Shown piece after piece: positions 27,693-41,219 of a stretch of 62,106 nucleotides of DNA. The stretch is from Candidatus Eisenbacteria bacterium (GTDB lineage Bacteria > Orphanbacterota > Orphanbacteria > Orphanbacterales > Orphanbacteraceae), in contig JAFGGD010000014.1 of assembly GCA_016930695.1 (NCBI GenBank), forward strand, positions 1 to 62,106. The letters run 5' to 3'. The translations under genes were made by a program, and so were the position numbers. Within the stretch, counting starts at the first letter, position 1. Each line of letters begins with the position of its first letter. The notes under the pieces were generated by a model. That model was not told where the DNA came from. It saw nothing but the letters and a program-made list of their open reading frames with translations, and ran no database searches.

Positions 27693-29048
27693 ATGTCTCC
27701 CTCCGAAGTCTGGTCGCGCGCGCTGAAGTTCCTCAAAGAGTCGGTCAACAAACAGACCTTCGAGGCCTGGTTCCTCCCCACCCGGTGCGTCGCCTTCTCG
27801 GCGGAAGGGGTGCGGATCCTTGTGCCGAATCAGTTCTTCGCGGATTGGCTCAAGGACAATCACCTTCCTCTGATCCGCGAATCGCTCGCCCGGGCGATCG
27901 GGGCCTCCCCGCCCGACGTGGATTTCGCCGTCTCCGACGAACCGGTGCGGCGCCCCGCCCCGCCCCCGCCGCAGCCACAAACACAACCGCCCCCCCAGGC
28001 TCCCCGGCCGGCGCCGTCACAGTGGAGCGGCTGCCAGCTGAGCGAGCGGTTCTCCTTCGACACCTTCGTGGTCGGAAGGAGCAACGCCTTCGCCCACGCG
28101 GCGGCGCAGGCCGTGGCGGAGAATCCGGGCCATGCCTACAACCCGCTTTTCGTCTACGGGGGCGTGGGGCTCGGCAAGACCCATATCATCCAAGCCATCG
28201 GTCACCGCGTGATGGAGAAACAGAACGGATCGAGCGTTCACTATGTTTCCGCGGAGAGCTTCATGAACGAAATGATCCAGTCGATTCAGACGGGATCCAC
28301 CCTTCGCTTCAAGGAGCGCTACCGCAACATGGATCTCCTGCTCCTGGACGACGTCCAGTTCCTCGCCGGCAAGGAGAGCACCCAGGAGGAGTTCTTTCAC
28401 ACGTTCAACGCGCTCTTCAACGCGCGCAAGCAGATCGTTCTCACCAGCGACCGGCCGCCGAAGGAGATCACCAACCTCGAGGAGCGGCTCGTTTCCCGCT
28501 TCGAATGGGGTCTCGTGGCGGACATTCAATCGCCGGACCTGGAGACGCGCATCGCCATTCTGCGCAAGAAGGCGGAGATGGAAAATCTCTCCATCCCCGA
28601 CGAAGTGCTCCTCTTCATCGCCAACTCGATCCGCTCCAACATTCGCGAGATCGAAGGCTCCCTGGTGCGCCTCCTCGCCTTTTCCTCTCTCACGGGGCAG
28701 GACATCACCATCGACATGGCCCGCGACGTTTTGAAGGATTTTCTCTCCCGGCGCGGGAGGAACGCCACGGTTCCGTTGATCCAGAAGGCGGTCGCGAAGG
28801 AGTTTCACGTGCCCGACGACGCGATGGTCTCCAAGCGCCGCACCGCCGATATCGCCCTCGCCCGCCAGGTGGCGATGTACCTCGCCCGCGAACTGGCCGG
28901 TCTATCGCTCAAGCAGATCGGCACGCGCTTCGGCGGGAGGGACCACACGACCGTGCTGCACGGATTTCAGAAGGTGGAGGCGATGATGAAAGCGGACGAC
29001 GAATTCCGGGCGCGCATCGACCGCCTCGTCGATCAGGTCACCTCTTGA
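27693..29048 (+). CDS. dnaA: Chromosomal replication initiator protein DnaA
   Basis: The 451-aa protein is complete. Domain I (1-80) recruits helicase. A short proline/glutamine-rich linker (about 85-110) is domain II. The AAA+ domain has Walker A GGVGLGKT at 156-163 and Walker B LLLDDVQFL. Domain IV (about 340-451) includes the DNA-binding signature GGRDHTTVLHG. GAGGAGAAG precedes the ATG. DnaA boxes flank the gene on both sides, so it lies within its own origin. Confidence 0.98.
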   Translation: MSPSEVWSRALKFLKESVNKQTFEAWFLPTRCVAFSAEGVRILVPNQFFADWLKDNHLPLIRESLARAIGASPPDVDFAVSDEPVRRPAPPPPQPQTQPPPQAPRPAPSQWSGCQLSERFSFDTFVVGRSNAFAHAAAQAVAENPGHAYNPLFVYGGVGLGKTHIIQAIGHRVMEKQNGSSVHYVSAESFMNEMIQSIQTGSTLRFKERYRNMDLLLLDDVQFLAGKESTQEEFFHTFNALFNARKQIVLTSDRPPKEITNLEERLVSRFEWGLVADIQSPDLETRIAILRKKAEMENLSIPDEVLLFIANSIRSNIREIEGSLVRLLAFSSLTGQDITIDMARDVLKDFLSRRGRNATVPLIQKAVAKEFHVPDDAMVSKRRTADIALARQVAMYLARELAGLSLKQIGTRFGGRDHTTVLHGFQKVEAMMKADDEFRARIDRLVDQVTS

Positions 29049-29360
29049 ACCGATCGGGGAACCGTATCGCCCGCCGGCGCTCTACTCGCCCGCGGGCTTT
29101 TTTCTTTTCGTCCACCCCCGGCGTGGACAAACCGCGGGAAACCGGTGGAGAAAGAACCTCCCTCTGTGGACCACTGTCCCCCACGGACTCCCCCGGTGGA
29201 AAAACATCCTCCTTCCACCCTTTCATCCACAACCCCTGTGGGCTTTTCCCCCTCGTCAGGGGCATCGAGAGGCCGCGAGGAAACCATTCTTCCTCTTTCT
29301 CCACATATCCCCCGGCCCTACTACTCCTACAACTCTTTAAAAAACAAGAGAATATAGGAC
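29049..29360. other. oriC, downstream part with DnaA-trio-type unwinding element
   Basis: Further DnaA-box-like 9-mers occur at 29165-29173 (TGTGGACCA) and 29223-29231 (TCATCCACA). At 29297-29305 TTCTCCACA is followed by a GC cluster (29308-29318), then the triplets TAC TAC TCC TAC AAC (29319-29333), then AT-rich DNA (29337-29357). Box, GC cluster, trio, AT-rich tract in this order is the layout of the basal unwinding system described for Bacillus, also located between dnaA and dnaN. The remainder of this gap up to the dnaN promoter shows no gene. Confidence 0.7.
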
Positions 29361-29448
29361 CGGGGAGAACAAGACTCCCTTCGCGGGCGCGTTCGTTCGC
29401 GTCGCCGTAAACGGTTGGAATAGAAAGAATTGACTTTCATGTTTTTGC

Positions 29449-29477
29449 TTGCCCGGCCCGGGGTGATCTCCTATACT
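29449..29477 (+). promoter_or_regulatory. Promoter of the dnaN operon
   Basis: TTGCCC (29449-29454) and TATACT (29472-29477) are 17 bp apart, 62 bp before the dnaN ATG. It would drive dnaN-recF-dciA-gyrB-gyrA-hflX, whose gaps are all short. Confidence 0.65.
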
Positions 29478-29539
29478 GCACGAGATTGGGGTGGAGCGGC
29501 TTCGAAAGGGTCGTTCCCCCTTGCGAAGGAGGACAGTTG

Positions 29540-30655
29540 ATGGAATTCGTCACGGACAAGGCGGAGCTGGCGCGGACCCTGGACCTGGTCCTTCACATCG
29601 TTCCGCCCAAAACGACTCTTCCGGTCCTTTCCAACCTTCTCCTGGACGTGAAGAAGGATGCGATCATGGTGGTGTCCACGGACCTCGACACCTCCATTTC
29701 CACGAGCGTGACCGGAGAAGTCGTTTCCGAGGGAATCATCACGGTTCCCGCCCGCCGTTTAGGCGAGATCGTGCGTCTTCTGCCGAACAAGCCGATTCAC
29801 TTCACTCTCGAGGGGGAGACGCGGATTCACATTCAATGCGGCGAGACGCGATACGGGATCATGGGGATTGCCGAAGACGAGTTTCCCAAAATCCCGCCGA
29901 TTCAGTCGAAGGAGAAAATACTCCTTCCCGCCGGTGTGCTGCGCCGCATGATCGCCAAAACCTCCTTCGCGGTTTCCAAGGACGAGACGCGGCCGGCGCT
30001 GAATGGGATCTTTTGGCGCGTCGAGCCGGAGCGCATGGAGATGGTCGCCACGGACGGATACCGGTTGGCGAAGATTGAGAAGAGGGGGACTTTCCCGGTC
30101 AAGGGGAAGAAGGAATTTCTCGTCTCGCCGAAGGCGCTCGGACAGATGGCGCATCTCTTCGCCGATTCCGAAGAGGAAGTGGATATCACGGTAGACAACA
30201 ACTACCTGGTCTTCTCCTTCGCCGGGACGGTGGTGTACTCCCGCCTGCTCGAGGGTCCTTTTCCCCGTTACGAGCAGGTCATTCCGAAGAACAACACCAA
30301 GTCGCTCCTGGTGGACCGGGAAGAGGCGATGGTCGCATGCCGGCGCGTGGCCATTCTCTCCGACACGCTGACTCACCAGGTGCAGGTTTCTCTTAAAAAG
30401 AACAGCATGATCCTGCGGTCGAACACGCCGGACCTGGGCGAAGCGATCGATCAGGTGGTCGCGGAGTACGCCGAAGACGAAATGGAGATCGGCTACAACG
30501 CGGCCTATATGACGGATATCCTGAAAAACATCGACGGCGCCAGGGTCCGTTTCCGTCTCGACACGCCGATCAAGGCCGCGCTGATGGAGCCGGAGGAACA
30601 GCAGGAGGATGAACATTACTTCTGCCTGCTCATGCCGCTCCGTTTGGCCGAGTAG
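29540..30655 (+). CDS. dnaN: DNA polymerase III beta sliding clamp
   Basis: The 371-aa clamp has the three repeated domains and family text such as LPVLSNLLL (near 28), GTFPVKGKKEFLVSPKAL and the final YFCLLMPLRL, whose Met-Pro-Leu-Arg end is the hallmark of bacterial clamps. The open frame reaches 18 codons further upstream, but the ATG at 29540 sits behind AAGGAGGACAG, and MEFVTDKAEL is the standard N-terminus. Confidence 0.98.
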   Translation: MEFVTDKAELARTLDLVLHIVPPKTTLPVLSNLLLDVKKDAIMVVSTDLDTSISTSVTGEVVSEGIITVPARRLGEIVRLLPNKPIHFTLEGETRIHIQCGETRYGIMGIAEDEFPKIPPIQSKEKILLPAGVLRRMIAKTSFAVSKDETRPALNGIFWRVEPERMEMVATDGYRLAKIEKRGTFPVKGKKEFLVSPKALGQMAHLFADSEEEVDITVDNNYLVFSFAGTVVYSRLLEGPFPRYEQVIPKNNTKSLLVDREEAMVACRRVAILSDTLTHQVQVSLKKNSMILRSNTPDLGEAIDQVVAEYAEDEMEIGYNAAYMTDILKNIDGARVRFRLDTPIKAALMEPEEQQEDEHYFCLLMPLRLAE

Positions 30656-30675
30656 CGCCGGCGCGAGAGCGGGAG

Positions 30676-31765
30676 GTGACCCTCGAGACCCTACGACTGT
30701 CCGACTTCCGAAACTTCGGTGATCTCGAGGTCGATTTCGCCGGCCGAACGGCAGCCGTGTGGGGACCGAACGGCATGGGGAAAACCAACCTCCTCGAGGC
30801 CGTCTTTCTTCTCGGCACAACCCGATCCCACCGCACGCGCAAGGACGCCGAGATGGTCCGGTTCGGCGCGCGCGGGTACGTCGTGGGCGGGGTCTTCCGC
30901 CGCTCCGGCGGGGAGCGGACCGAAATCGCCCTCGCCTATGAGGAGGGTGGGCGCAAGCGGGGGCGGGTGGACCGCAAGGACGTGGACCGCCTCGCCTCTC
31001 TGGTCGGCTTGTTCGGCGTGGTTTTCGTCTCTCCCGAGGACGTGGAGATCACGCGTGGCGGGCCGGACAGGAGAAGACAGTATCTGGACCTGACGCTCTG
31101 CTCCGTCGATCCGGTCTACCTGAGGGCGTTGCAGGAGTACAACCGGGCGCATCGGCAGAGGGGCCGCCTCCTTCGGGAGGGGCGCGGCCCCGGCCTGGAG
31201 GCGCAGATCGATTCCTGGGACCGGCAGCTCGCCCGCTCCGCGGTCCCCCTGGACCGGGCGCGGCGCGAGGCGGTGGATCGTTTGTCTCCGGCGGCGGAGA
31301 GGACCTACGCCGACCTGGGCGGCGGCGAGCGGCTCGAGATGGCGCTGGTTCCGGGGAGCGGGGAGGGAGCGGTCGACGAGGAGGCTCTTTTGGAGCGGTT
31401 GCGCGCCGGCCGGGAGGTGGACCGACGGACCGGGCGCACCGGCGTCGGTCCCCACAGGGACGACCTGGAGGTTCTCCTCGACCGGCGCCCGATCCGGAGC
31501 TACGGCTCCCGCGGGCAGAACCGCACGGCGGTGCTGGCGCTGAAGATCGGTGCGGCGCGCTACATGGAGGAGAGGACCGGGGAGAAACCGCTGCTCCTCC
31601 TGGACGATGTCTTCACCGAACTGGATCGGTCGCGCTCCCTCGCGCTGGCCGAGCGTCTCCGCGGGGAGGGGCAGGTCTTCGCCACCGGCACCGATCGGGG
31701 CGGCCTGGAACGGTACTTCCCGGACGCGGAATGGTTTTCGATCCGGGAGGGGGGAAGGTTGGTTC

Positions 31766-31776
<11 letters not shown>
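30676..31776 (+). CDS. recF: DNA replication/repair protein RecF
   Basis: The 366-aa SMC-like ATPase has Walker A GPNGMGKTNLLEA (about 31-43), the SHRT segment and the C-terminal LLLLDDVFTELD Walker B plus signature region. It loads RecA at single-strand gaps with RecO and RecR. The GTG at 30676 follows GGGAG. It is 20 bp after dnaN and overlaps the next gene by 11 bp. Confidence 0.97.
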
Positions 31777-34040
<2,264 letters not shown>

Positions 34041-34079
34041 AGGAGCGTCCGCTCGGCGACGACCCGAGGACGACGAACG

Positions 34080-36554
34080 ATGGCGGAAGAGACGATACTC
34101 CCGGTTTTTCTCGAAAAGGAGATGAAGGAGTCCTACCTCACCTACGCGATGAGCGTGATTATTCAGCGCGCCCTGCCGGACGTGAGGGACGGCCTGAAAC
34201 CTTCGCAGCGGCGCATCCTGGTCGCCATGAACGACCTCAATCTCGCGCCGGGGGCGCAGCACAGGAAGTGCGCCAAGATCGCCGGCGACACCTCCGGGAA
34301 CTACCACCCCCACGGCGAGCAGGTGATCTATCCCACGCTGGTCCGCATGGCGCAGGGCTTCAACCTCCGCTATCCGCTCGTGGACGGCCAGGGAAACTTC
34401 GGGTCCATCGACGGCGACCCGCCGGCGGCGATGCGCTACACCGAAGCGCGCATGGCCGCACCCGCGATGGAGCTGCTGGAGGACCTGGACAAGGACACGG
34501 TCGACTTCATCAGCAACTACGACGAGACCAAGGACGAGCCCCGCGTTCTCCCGGGCAAGTTCCCGAACCTGGTGGTGAACGGCTGCTCCGGCATCGCCGT
34601 CGGCATGGCGACCAACATACCCCCCCACAACATCCGGGAGGTGGGCGAGGCGCTGATCGCCCTCATCGATGATCCGGAGCTCCCCGACGTGGCGATGCTC
34701 GACTACGTACGGGGCCCCGACTTCCCCACCGGTGGCGTGATCCACGGCACCCAGGGGATCCGCGACGCCTACCTGACCGGCCACGGCCGGCTGACGGTGC
34801 GCGCCCGCACGGTGATGGAGGAGATGAAGGGCGGGCGCGAAAGGATCGTGGTCCAAGAGATCCCTTATCAGGTAAACAAAACCGCGCTGATCGAGAAGAT
34901 CGCCGGCCTGGTGCGGGACGGGGACGTGGAGGGGATCGCCGACATCCGGGACGAGTCGGACCGGAAGGGAATGCGGATCGTCATCGAGCTGAAGAAGGAC
35001 GCGCCCACCCAGGTCATCCTGAACCAACTCTTCCAGAGGAGCCAGCTGCAGGACACCTTCGGCGTGTCGCTGCTGGCGCTGGTGGACGGCGGCCCCCGGG
35101 TGATGACGCTGAAACAGCTCCTCACCGAGTACCTCCGCCACAGGCGGGAGGTCGTGGACCGTCGCACCCGCTTCGACCTGGAGAAGGCCAAGGCGCGGGC
35201 CCACATCCTCGAAGGGCTCCGCATCGCTCTCGACAACATCGACGCCATCATCGACCTGATCCGCTCCTCCGCCGATCCGGCCGAAGCGAAGCAGGGGTTG
35301 ATGGAGCGCTTCGGGCTCTCCGAGAAGCAGGCCCAGGCGATCCTCGACATGCGGCTCCAGCGGCTTACCGGGCTGGAGCGGAAGAAACTGGAGGAGGAGT
35401 ACCTCGGCCTGATCCAGACGATCGAGGACCTGGAGAGCATCCTCCGGAGCGAGGCGCGGGTTCGGGAGATCCTGAAGGACGAGATTCGCTACATGATCGA
35501 GCGTTTCGGCGACGACCGCCGCACCGACATCATCGACGCGGTGGTCTCCTTCGACCTGGAGGACCTGATCGCCGACGAGGACATGGTGGTCACCATCTCC
35601 CACAACGGCTACATCAAGCGCCTGCGCGTCGACACCTACCGGAAACAGAGGCGCGGCGGTCGCGGCATCACCGGCACGGTGCTGAGGGACGAGGATTTCG
35701 TGGAGAATCTCTTCATCGCCTCCACGCACTCCTACGTGCTCTTCTTCACCGACCAGGGGCGTTGCTACTGGCTCAAGGCGCATCAGATTCCGCAGGCGGG
35801 ACGCACGGCGCGCGGCAAGGCGATCGTGAACCTGATCCGCCTCCGGGAGAACGAGAAAATCACCGCCACCGTGCCGGTGCGCGAGTTCCGGGACGACCTT
35901 TTCCTGCTCCTCGCCACGCGCAAGGGGACGGTGAAGAAGACCCCGCTCACCGCGTACAGCAATCCGCGCCGCGTCGGGATCCACGCGATCCTCCTCGACG
36001 AGGGGGACAGCCTGATCGAGGCGAAGCTGACCGACGGGACCCGGGAGATCGTGCTCTCCAAGGCGCTCGGCAAGGCGATCCGCTTCCACGAGGGGGAAGT
36101 GCGGCCCATGGGCCGAACCGCCCGGGGCGTGCGGGGCGTGATCTGCGATCCCGGCGACGAGGTGGTCGGCATGGTCACCCTCGAGAGGAACGGCTCCCTC
36201 CTGATGGTCACCGAGAACGGCTATGGAAAGCGGACCACGATCGACGAGTACCGGATCACCCGTCGCGGCGGCAAGGGGATCATCACCGTGCGCGCGAACG
36301 ACCGGAACGGACGGCTCGTGGCGATCCGCGAAGTCATCGACTCGGACGAACTGATGATCATGAGCCGCAAGGGGATCATCATCCGCATGGCCGTCGGCGG
36401 AATCTCCCTGATGGGTCGGAACACCCAGGGCGTGCACCTCATCAACCTCGACGAGGGAGACACGGTGGTGGGCATGACCCGAGTCGTCACCGATGACACG
36501 GAGGAGCTGGAGGTCGGCTCCGAACCGGACGGCGACGAAGGCGGAGGGGATTGA
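34080..36554 (+). CDS. gyrA: DNA gyrase subunit A
   Basis: The 824-aa protein has the winged-helix/tower breakage domain with catalytic Tyr120 (in MRYTEARM), the coiled coil, and a C-terminal beta-pinwheel. The GyrA box reads QRRGGRGI (about residue 524), which marks a true gyrase rather than topoisomerase IV. The quinolone-determining region reads [17 protein letters not shown], with Glu where many sensitive gyrases have Asp/Ser-type residues near position 83. The tail is acidic. Its stop overlaps the TTG of hflX. Confidence 0.96.
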
Positions 36555-37891
36555 CGGAAAAACGCGGGTCGAAACGATTCATCCACGAAACCGTTTTTCG
36601 TGACGAGACGGACATCGCCGCCGGCGGGAGCACCGAGCCCGCGCCGGAGACGGCGGTGCTCGTCGGCGTGGGCCTCCCCGCCGACACGGCGGCGGCCGTC
36701 ACCCGCTCTCTGGACGAACTCGCCGAGCTGGCCCGCACCGCCGGCGCCGAGGTGGTGGGGCGCTTCACCCAGCGCCGCACGCGGGTAGAGGGGGCCACCT
36801 ATATCGGCAAGGGAAAGCTGGAGGAGCTGACCCGGTTCGTCGAGGAGCGGAAAGCCCGCCTCGTCCTCTTCGACAACGACCTCTCCCCCGCGCAGGCCCG
36901 AAACCTGGAGAAGGAACTCCGGGTGAAAGTGATCGACCGGAGCGAGCTGATCCTCCACATCTTCTCGATTCACGCCCGCACCGACATGGCCAAGCTGCAG
37001 GTGGAGCTGGCCCAGCTCGAGTACGCGATGCCGCGCCTCCGGCGGCTGTGGGCGCACCTCTCCCGGCTCGGCGGAGGCATCGGGACGCGCGGGCCGGGGG
37101 AGACCCAGCTCGAGGTGGATCGCCGCCGCGTTCGGGAGCGGATCCATCACTTGAAGCAGGAACTGAAACGGTTCGACACCTGCCGGGACGAACAGCGGAA
37201 GGCGCGGGCCGGCAAAGAGGTCGGCGTCGCCCTCGTCGGCTACACCAACGCGGGAAAGTCGACGCTCTTAAACCGTCTCGCCGGAAGCGACGTGGAGGCG
37301 GAGGACTTCCTCTTCTGCACCCTCGACACGACGAGCCGCGTGGTCGACCTGGACCGGGACTACCGCATCGTCCTCTCCGACACGGTCGGTTTCATACGGA
37401 AGCTCCCCCACGGCCTGGTGGCCTCCTTCCGCGCCACCCTGTCGGAGGTGCGCCACGCCGACCTCCTGATCCACGTGGTGGACGCGTCGAACGAGGACGC
37501 GGAGGCGCAGATCGAGGCGGTGCACGGTGTGCTCGAAGAGCTGGGCGCGGCGGAGAAGCCGACCATCCTCGTGCTGAACAAGGAGGACGCCGTCACCGAC
37601 ACGCTCGCGCTGAACCGTCTCGCCGATCAACATGGTCCGGCCCTCTCCCTGAGCGCCCGAACCGGCGCCGGGACCGCCCGCCTCCTCGACGAAATCCGAA
37701 GAGAGGTCGCCTCCATGCGCCTGGCGGTGGATCTCGTCTTCCCCGCCACCGCCTCGGCCGAGGCGGCCCGGGTGCATCGCGAGGGGGAGGTGCTGGACGT
37801 CCGCTACGAAGAGGAAACGATCCACATCCGCGCCCGCCTCCCCGTCTCCCTGCTCGAACGTCTTCGGAAAAAGGGATACGTGAGGGAATAG
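36551..37891 (+). CDS. hflX: Ribosome-associated GTPase HflX
   Basis: The 446-aa protein has the HflX N-terminal domain (TQRRTRVEGATYIGKGKLEEL), the glycine-rich linker GGIGTRGPGETQLE, and a G domain with GYTNAGKSTLLNRL, DTVGFIRKLPH and NKED. HflX rescues stalled 70S ribosomes by splitting them. The start is a TTG overlapping the gyrA stop (TTGA) behind GGAGGGGA, the only reasonable initiation codon near the conserved region. The C-terminal part (VRYEEETIHIRARLP) resembles the usual HflX end. Confidence 0.95.
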   Translation: MTEKRGSKRFIHETVFRDETDIAAGGSTEPAPETAVLVGVGLPADTAAAVTRSLDELAELARTAGAEVVGRFTQRRTRVEGATYIGKGKLEELTRFVEERKARLVLFDNDLSPAQARNLEKELRVKVIDRSELILHIFSIHARTDMAKLQVELAQLEYAMPRLRRLWAHLSRLGGGIGTRGPGETQLEVDRRRVRERIHHLKQELKRFDTCRDEQRKARAGKEVGVALVGYTNAGKSTLLNRLAGSDVEAEDFLFCTLDTTSRVVDLDRDYRIVLSDTVGFIRKLPHGLVASFRATLSEVRHADLLIHVVDASNEDAEAQIEAVHGVLEELGAAEKPTILVLNKEDAVTDTLALNRLADQHGPALSLSARTGAGTARLLDEIRREVASMRLAVDLVFPATASAEAARVHREGEVLDVRYEEETIHIRARLPVSLLERLRKKGYVRE

Positions 37892-38019: not shown

Positions 38020-40764
38020 TCAGCGCGCGTCCGAGGAGGCGAGCTCCATTTCGGCGCGGCTCAATCCTTCCCGGGCGGCTGCCAGATCCGGGTTTTCGGA
38101 GAGGGCGCGCCGGAAGTGTGTCGCCGCCTCCTCGCTTCTCTTCTCGGCGAGAAGCACTTCGCCGAGGGCGCACTCCGCCCAGGGAAAGTCGGCGCCTTTC
38201 TCGATCGCCTCGCGAAGGTCGCTTTCCGCGCCGGCCCGATCACCCGATTCGGCGCGCAGCCTCCCGCGGATCGCATAGGCGGCGCCGATCCGCGAATCCA
38301 GCTCAATGGCCCTCTCCGCCGCCGCCGCCGCGCCCTCGCGGTCTCCCATCTGCATGCGAACGTGCGCCAGCTCCACCTGGGCGAGCTTGTGGCGCGGCCG
38401 GAGTTCGACCAGGAGCGCCAGGAGGCGCTCCGCCTCGGCGTAGCGCCGGTCTCCCCGGTAATGACGGGCCAGCTTGAAGAGGGCCTGGGGGTCGCGGCTC
38501 CCCGCCTGCACCGCCGCCTCCAGCGTGGCGATCATCGCGGCGGCTTCCCGTAAAAGCCCTCCGGCTATCGGATCGTCCGGATAAATGTCGAGCGCTTCCC
38601 GGTAGGCGGCGCGAGCCGCGTCCTTCTCCAGGAGCAGGTCGGCCGCCAAGCCGCGCAGGACGCAGGCGGAGGCGCATTGCCGGCGCTCGACACAGGCGCG
38701 GACCGCCGCGCATTCCTCGGGCGAATCCCCCAGGTTCTCCAGCAGCGAGAGAAGGGGGCGCCGCCGCTCCAGAAGAGCCTTCAGGTTGCACGCCCAGATC
38801 TCCCGATCTCCGCTCGCCTGCACGCGGGGCGCCGAGAACTCCATATAGGGCCGGTCGAAGGTGTTCACCCGCGCCCCCGCGGTATAGGCGCGGATCGCCT
38901 CCGGGTCGAGCATGAAGGCGTCCAGCAGGCGGACCGGATCGCCGAGCCCCACCTCCTCCAGGTCCTCGCGGATCTCCGGAAGTTCACCGAGGCGGTTCGC
39001 CACGCGGCCGTAGTCGATCCGCAGGGGGCTGTCGTCGCATTTCCAGCCGAGGAGAAGCGCGTTCCGGGTCAGACAATTGGTTCCGACCCAAACGGTGCTT
39101 ACGGGAAACACTTCCTGGAATGTGTGGAGGAGCATCTTCATGTCGTCCTCGGTGAGCATGCCGATGGGGAACCAGGAAGACATCATGCCGTCATCGGCGA
39201 GCCGACCCCGGCAGGCGGCGAAGTAGTCCCGCGCGTAGAGGTCCGAACTCCCCCGCATCATCGGGTGGACCGAGTCGTTCAGGATCAGGTCGTAGGTTTC
39301 CTCCGTGGCGAGCACGTGATTTTTGGCGTCCTCGATCACGATGCGGAGGCGCGGGTCGCGATAGACTTCCTCGTTGATGCGGTGGAAGTAGGGGCCCGCC
39401 GCGATCACTTCCGGCGAAATGTCCACGCCGTCGAGTCGCTCGATGGGATGAAGCAGGATCGAGTGGGCCGTTTCGCCGCTGCCGAGGCCGACCTGCATCA
39501 CCCGGCGCGGATCGGGGTGGAGCAGAAGCGGGATGTGGGCTTGCAGCTTCTGGGTGGTCCGGAGCATCCGCGTGGTTCCCGCCACGTCGGCGCCGTTGAT
39601 GGAGAGCATGCGGCTGGCGGGCGAGTCGTGAATCGTGACCGTTCCGGTGATCCCCTCCCGGCAGTAGATGATTTCGCCCCCCCTCAGGTTGTAGCCGAAG
39701 ACGGGGAGAAAGGCGTTCTCCGGAAGGGAGAGGGAGAGGAGGAGAAGCGCCGCGGCGGGGGCCGCCGCCGCCGCGAACGCCCGCGCGCCGGAGAGACGGA
39801 AGGAGCGGAGAAGCAGCACGCCCCCGAGAAGTCCGTTGGCGGCGGCGAGAAACACCACCGTGCTTTGCGTCCCCAGGAGCGGAATCAGCAGGAAACCGGC
39901 GGCGAAGGACCCGAGCACGGCGCCGACCGTGTTCACCGCGACGATCCGGCCGACCCGTTCGCCGATCTGGCCGATGTCCCGCGCGTAGAGGGTGGAGACG
40001 AGGGGAAAGGTCATTCCCATGAGCAGCGTGGGGAGAAAGACCACCAGCACCGCCTCGACGAACTTCACGATCGCAAGACGCTCCCAGCTCGCAACGCGGA
40101 AGAGGAGGATCAGCAGATCGCTCACGTGGGGAAAGTGGGCGAGGAGCGCCACCGAGAGAAGCGCCGCCACGCCGATGCCGATCTCCAGCGCGCCGAAGAG
40201 GGCGAAGCCGCGGCGGAGGCGGTCGACGCGGGGCGCGAGAATCATGCTCCCCAGAGCGAGACCGAAGAGAAAGACCGACAGCATGATGGTAAAGGCATAA
40301 ACGGATGCGGAGAGAACGTAGAGGAGCACGCGGGTCCAGGCCACCTCATAGGCCAGGGCGAGAAAACCGCTGATGCCGATGGCGGCGAGGGCGAGGCGCG
40401 CGCCGGCGGGGCGGCCCTCCCGACCCCGGACGGCGTCCTCCGCTCCGGCCGGTTTCGCGGCGACCGGGGCGCGGGTCGGGCGGAGCAAGCCCGCGCCGAG
40501 GGCGGCAAAACCGATCACGAAATTGACGGCGGCGGCGAGAAAGAGGGTGTGCCTCACGCCCAGGCTCGCGATCAGGAGAAACCCGGCGAGAAGGCATCCC
40601 CCCATTGCGCCGAAGGTGTTGATGGCGTAGAGGACGCCCATGCTCCACCCCACGTCATCGCTCGAACGGACCCGGTAGCGAACCAGCACGGGCAGGGTCC
40701 CCCCCATTAAGGCGGCCGGTAGGATCAACACGAGGAAGGCGAAGGCGAAGCGGACAAGGCTCAT
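38020..40764 (-). CDS. Fused MFS transporter/spermidine-synthase-like/TPR protein, downstream part of an interrupted gene
   Basis: From the ATG at 40764 the frame gives 914 aa: about nine membrane helices (1-320), a spermidine-synthase-like Rossmann domain (about 345-560, with VMQVGLGSGETAHSI and VIEDAKNHV) and a C-terminal tetratricopeptide region (about 690-914). Fused MFS/polyamine-synthase-like proteins normally begin with an extra N-terminal pair of helices. Exactly that segment is encoded in the same frame at 40894-41109 and is separated only by one TAG at 40894-40896; sense codons run from there to 40764. This is therefore either a nonsense-interrupted gene or a sequence error. Amber codons are used as ordinary stops elsewhere in the window (dnaN, hflX), which argues against general recoding. 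Confidence 0.85.
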   Translation of the reverse strand: MSLVRFAFAFLVLILPAALMGGTLPVLVRYRVRSSDDVGWSMGVLYAINTFGAMGGCLLAGFLLIASLGVRHTLFLAAAVNFVIGFAALGAGLLRPTRAPVAAKPAGAEDAVRGREGRPAGARLALAAIGISGFLALAYEVAWTRVLLYVLSASVYAFTIMLSVFLFGLALGSMILAPRVDRLRRGFALFGALEIGIGVAALLSVALLAHFPHVSDLLILLFRVASWERLAIVKFVEAVLVVFLPTLLMGMTFPLVSTLYARDIGQIGERVGRIVAVNTVGAVLGSFAAGFLLIPLLGTQSTVVFLAAANGLLGGVLLLRSFRLSGARAFAAAAAPAAALLLLSLSLPENAFLPVFGYNLRGGEIIYCREGITGTVTIHDSPASRMLSINGADVAGTTRMLRTTQKLQAHIPLLLHPDPRRVMQVGLGSGETAHSILLHPIERLDGVDISPEVIAAGPYFHRINEEVYRDPRLRIVIEDAKNHVLATEETYDLILNDSVHPMMRGSSDLYARDYFAACRGRLADDGMMSSWFPIGMLTEDDMKMLLHTFQEVFPVSTVWVGTNCLTRNALLLGWKCDDSPLRIDYGRVANRLGELPEIREDLEEVGLGDPVRLLDAFMLDPEAIRAYTAGARVNTFDRPYMEFSAPRVQASGDREIWACNLKALLERRRPLLSLLENLGDSPEECAAVRACVERRQCASACVLRGLAADLLLEKDAARAAYREALDIYPDDPIAGGLLREAAAMIATLEAAVQAGSRDPQALFKLARHYRGDRRYAEAERLLALLVELRPRHKLAQVELAHVRMQMGDREGAAAAAERAIELDSRIGAAYAIRGRLRAESGDRAGAESDLREAIEKGADFPWAECALGEVLLAEKRSEEAATHFRRALSENPDLAAAREGLSRAEMELASSDAR

Positions 40765-40893
40765 CTCGTAGAAGGAGGGATGGAAGGCGCGGTGAAAGGC
40801 GATCAGGAGCTGTTCCGTCCCGGCGAGAGCGGGGAGAAGGAGAATGGTGGAGATTCCGATGCCGATCTCCAGAAGCCCATAAACGCGTAACTC

Positions 40894-41109
40894 CTAGCCG
40901 GCCCGATCGATACGCCGCCCGAGCCACCAGCTTCCGAGGGCGAGCCCGGCCATGAAGGCGGCGAGGACGGAGCTGACGGCCAGGGCGGTGCTGCCGAAAA
41001 CGACGGAGAAGAGCCTCGTCCAGGCGACTTCGTAGACGAGCCCGGTCGCTCCGGAGAGGAAGAATAGCAGCAATACGAACCGGCGCGGCCGGGGGAGGCC
41101 GTTCCGCAT
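40894..41109 (-). pseudogene. N-terminal fragment of the fused MFS/spermidine-synthase gene, ended by in-frame TAG
   Basis: The 71-codon fragment starts at an ATG behind GAGGCGGATC and encodes the first helices of the family: FFLSGATGLVYEVAWTRLFS and VLAAFMAGLALGSWWLGRRI. It ends at TAG after IDRAG. The next codons in the same frame read ELRVYGLLEIGIGIST, which is exactly what should follow in intact homologues. Intact, the gene would span 38020-41109 and encode about 1029 aa. Confidence 0.8.
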
Positions 41110-41189: not shown

Positions 41190-41219
41190 AGTATACCAGA
41201 AAAAGGGTCGCGGGATCAA
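41190..41219 (-). promoter_or_regulatory. Promoter of the interrupted MFS fusion gene
   Basis: On the minus strand TTGATC (41219-41214) and TATACT (41195-41190) are 18 bp apart, about 80 bp upstream of the ATG at 41109. A conserved-looking promoter suggests the gene is or recently was expressed. The rest of 41110-41504 has no gene on either strand that I can support. Confidence 0.6.

Follow-up and report, generated by a model that had tools for sequence, protein, structure and literature searches.

A fused MFS/spermidine-synthase-like/TPR gene in a Candidatus Eisenbacteria bacterium is interrupted at codon 72 by a single in-frame TAG. Apart from this codon the gene is intact, and the TAG is very probably a private one-base change of this genome, stemming from a recent mutation to a nonsense codon or from a consensus error. 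The gene lies on the minus strand of the window, by which we mean the whole 62,106-nucleotide stretch of DNA analysed (contig JAFGGD010000014.1, assembly GCA_016930695.1). The relevant features, including one tRNA gene elsewhere in the source genome, are:

38020..41109, minus strand: fused MFS/spermidine-synthase-like/TPR gene with one TAG inside (translation; NCBIfam NF037959; Pfam PF01564 and TPR families)
40894..40896, minus strand: in-frame TAG, codon 72, where the closest ortholog (L036) has GAG (translation, alignments to relatives, codon comparison)
40897..41109, minus strand: upstream fragment of 71 codons, 76% amino acid identity to L036 (translation, pairwise comparison)
38020..40764, minus strand: downstream ORF of 914 amino acids, from the first in-frame start codon past the TAG (ORF list)
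41190..41219, minus strand: sigma-70-like promoter, TTGATC-18-TATACT (consensus match only)
L093:1501-1598, equal to genome C45:31083-31176: tRNA-Sec (UCA)

Translation of the minus strand from the ATG at 41109 to the TGA at 38020 gives 1029 codons plus the stop and confirms the single TAG at 40894-40896 that a sequence-only reading had reported. With the TAG read as X, one 1029-residue protein is obtained with no further stop before the terminal TGA, in which an MFS-like membrane region at the N-terminus is followed by a spermidine-synthase-like domain (residues 521-672; PF01564, 4.9e-21) and then by TPR repeats; it scores 131.9 bits against the MFS_SpdSyn model NF037959, for which the curated cut-off is 40. 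The frame had been described as intact on either side of the TAG, and BLAST alignments bear this out, family members aligning across the codon without gap or frame change. Because the homologs are contiguous there, this is a single gene with one interruption, not two genes. The clean frame of 914 codons claimed downstream corresponds to a real ORF, but that count begins at the ATG at 40764, and the true sense frame past the TAG is 957 codons. A promoter-like site is indeed found where one had been proposed, at 41219-41190, with 9 of 12 consensus matches (one found versus 0.3 expected by shuffling). The interrupted gene is divergent from a GAF/SpoIIE-phosphatase gene and convergent with an HflX-like GTPase gene, which lies beyond dnaA-dnaN-recF-gyrB-gyrA. 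This replication-origin type cluster, with the HflX-like gene at its end, occupies 27693-37891 on the plus strand; dnaN and recF were identified by N-terminal sequence and by position within the cluster.

A search of public genomes identified L036, from the metagenome-assembled genome M3-44_Bin_119 (JALGZR010000042.1), as the closest ortholog at 62% amino acid identity, and the reverse search from L036 returned the window gene as best match, also at 62%, with the next paralog at 39%. No shared synteny was found among the neighbouring genes tested, so the orthology is based on reciprocal best hits. L036 belongs to the NF037959 family with a C-terminal TPR region, has the same domain order and is contiguous across the site; it differs from the window gene in having GAG where that gene has TAG, and its TPR tail is longer, the protein measuring 1142 amino acids from its first start codon. 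At the site, L036 reads DRRGEELRIYG (GGC GAG GAG) and the window gene DRAG*ELRVYG (GGC TAG GAG). All 37 relatives have a sense codon in this column (N in 8, D in 7, R in 7, K in 4, E in 3, S in 3, Q in 2, and M, W and H in one each), a count that includes a few loci fetched twice; the column is variable and hydrophilic across the family, and no other family member compared has a stop there. Among the seven genomes of the phylum searched, including the source genome, none of the others holds a sequence closer than 41%, and six other genomes of the source's family carry relatives of at most 41% identity over their full length. No second genome of the source's genus and no further copy of the site in viral contigs were found. 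The same codon in relatives had been proposed as the check that would separate readthrough from error or private mutation; with GAG in the ortholog and TAG conserved in no relative, the result points to one of the latter two. The ancestral codon was presumably GAG, judging from one close ortholog, and GAG to TAG would be the simplest single-base route, while AAG, CAG, TGG, TCG, TTG, TAC or TAT are possible alternative one-step sources.

The change may thus have arisen either as a nonsense mutation, fixed or present as one strain's allele, or as a wrong base in the consensus assembled from the metagenome. We lean somewhat towards the first, in which a real and recent nonsense mutation, or a polymorphism among strains, inactivates the gene. 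The TAG is one step from the ortholog's codon, and the genome holds redundant paralogs. If the base is real, translation would stop after 71 residues, apart from any ordinary amber readthrough at a low level, and the gene would be effectively off, a loss that the three or more strong full-length paralogs in the genome perhaps make tolerable. Losses in this large family do occur at times, as is shown by a same-family paralog in a related genome (G003:C24:14896-17007), which contains two TAG and one TAA codons and is likely an older pseudogene. More broadly, the source genome (G000) encodes many fused MFS/spermidine-synthase-like paralogs, several of them full-length, and related genomes do likewise.

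Against a real mutation stand the 957 downstream codons, which show neither a second lesion nor faster change at conserved sites, a state that a base error would also explain. In comparison with L036, dN/dS (NG86) comes to about 0.22/0.85 for the part before the TAG and 0.35/1.09 for the part after it, values that record selection over the long history common to both genes and not the age of the lesion. Family-conserved sites are altered at ten positions only in the window gene and at seven only in L036, thus giving no sign of decay. Since only 198 of the 8613 possible single substitutions downstream create a stop, the lack of further stops is by itself a poor clock. A very recent mutation and an error would each be compatible with both results; with conserved sites decaying no faster than those of the ortholog, the mutation, if real, would be recent. 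In terms of pseudogene status, the gene, set against its intact ortholog, carries an inactivating lesion (TAG versus GAG), provided that the base is real, and it shows neither relaxed selection (the same 10 versus 7 changes) nor any other stop or frameshift.

A consensus or assembly error at this base is a serious contender, to which we give rather less than even weight; the ranking of mutation ahead of error is a rough judgement. Outside this codon the gene has no lesion and equals its ortholog in conservation, and the source genome is a fragmented draft (3.78 Mb in 60 contigs). Yet no internal stops occur in 36 ABC-transporter domains or in 12 other matches to the family within this genome, and base errors are thus not frequent.

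It is improbable that the gene has become split, with the downstream part made from a new start at the ATG at 40764. The 914-amino-acid ORF does begin there, but its product would lack about 115 N-terminal residues, the bases preceding this ATG (tccttctacgag) include no good ribosome-binding site, and L036 is fused across the corresponding point.

Least probable is programmed readthrough or recoding of the TAG, which would act as a regulated switch between 71- and 1029-residue products; equally slight is the chance of a lineage-specific amber codon read through at a low level, which would supply the full-length membrane protein in small, tuned amounts. The intact downstream frame would suit readthrough, as would the case made by Belinky et al. 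2021 (PMC7918605) for frequent tolerance of stop codons within bacterial reading frames. The window gene resembles their cases in having one in-frame TAG while the rest of the coding frame is conserved, but their candidates had to be common to at least two species, whereas the window TAG is common to no relative found and falls, as described above, in a variable column with sense codons throughout. An RNA element at the stop was also rejected: the 81 nucleotides around and past the TAG fold no better than shuffled sequences (z -0.36), and no Rfam family matches the site.

Nor does the genome appear equipped to decode TAG. RF1 is present, scoring above the curated cut-off of its model, and the release factor family has one more full-length match, a weaker one that is probably RF2. 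In a genome about 96% complete, pyrrolysine decoding was ruled out by the absence of PylS from the genome search, and a suppressor tRNA by the absence of a CUA anticodon among the 42 tRNA loci with anticodons read. The genome does encode SelB and a tRNA-Sec, but the latter carries the anticodon UCA and so reads UGA instead of UAG, excluding selenocysteine at this position; UGA selenocysteine decoding is expected in the source genome. As the earlier reading had argued from ordinary TAG stops, TAG terminates 8 of 31 large selected ORFs in the window, and with RF1 present and TAG an ordinary terminator, a TAG-reassigned code was rejected: the source genome uses the standard code. Of the origins which that reading had left open while leaning against recoding, a private mutation or an error are those that survive, no TAG-decoding machinery having been found.

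A literature search on the fused MFS/spermidine synthase family returned nothing relevant. The TAG at codon 72 reveals nothing new about decoding. Its significance is one of caution, in that an annotation pipeline would split this gene or label it a pseudogene, although the family member in relatives is normally full length.
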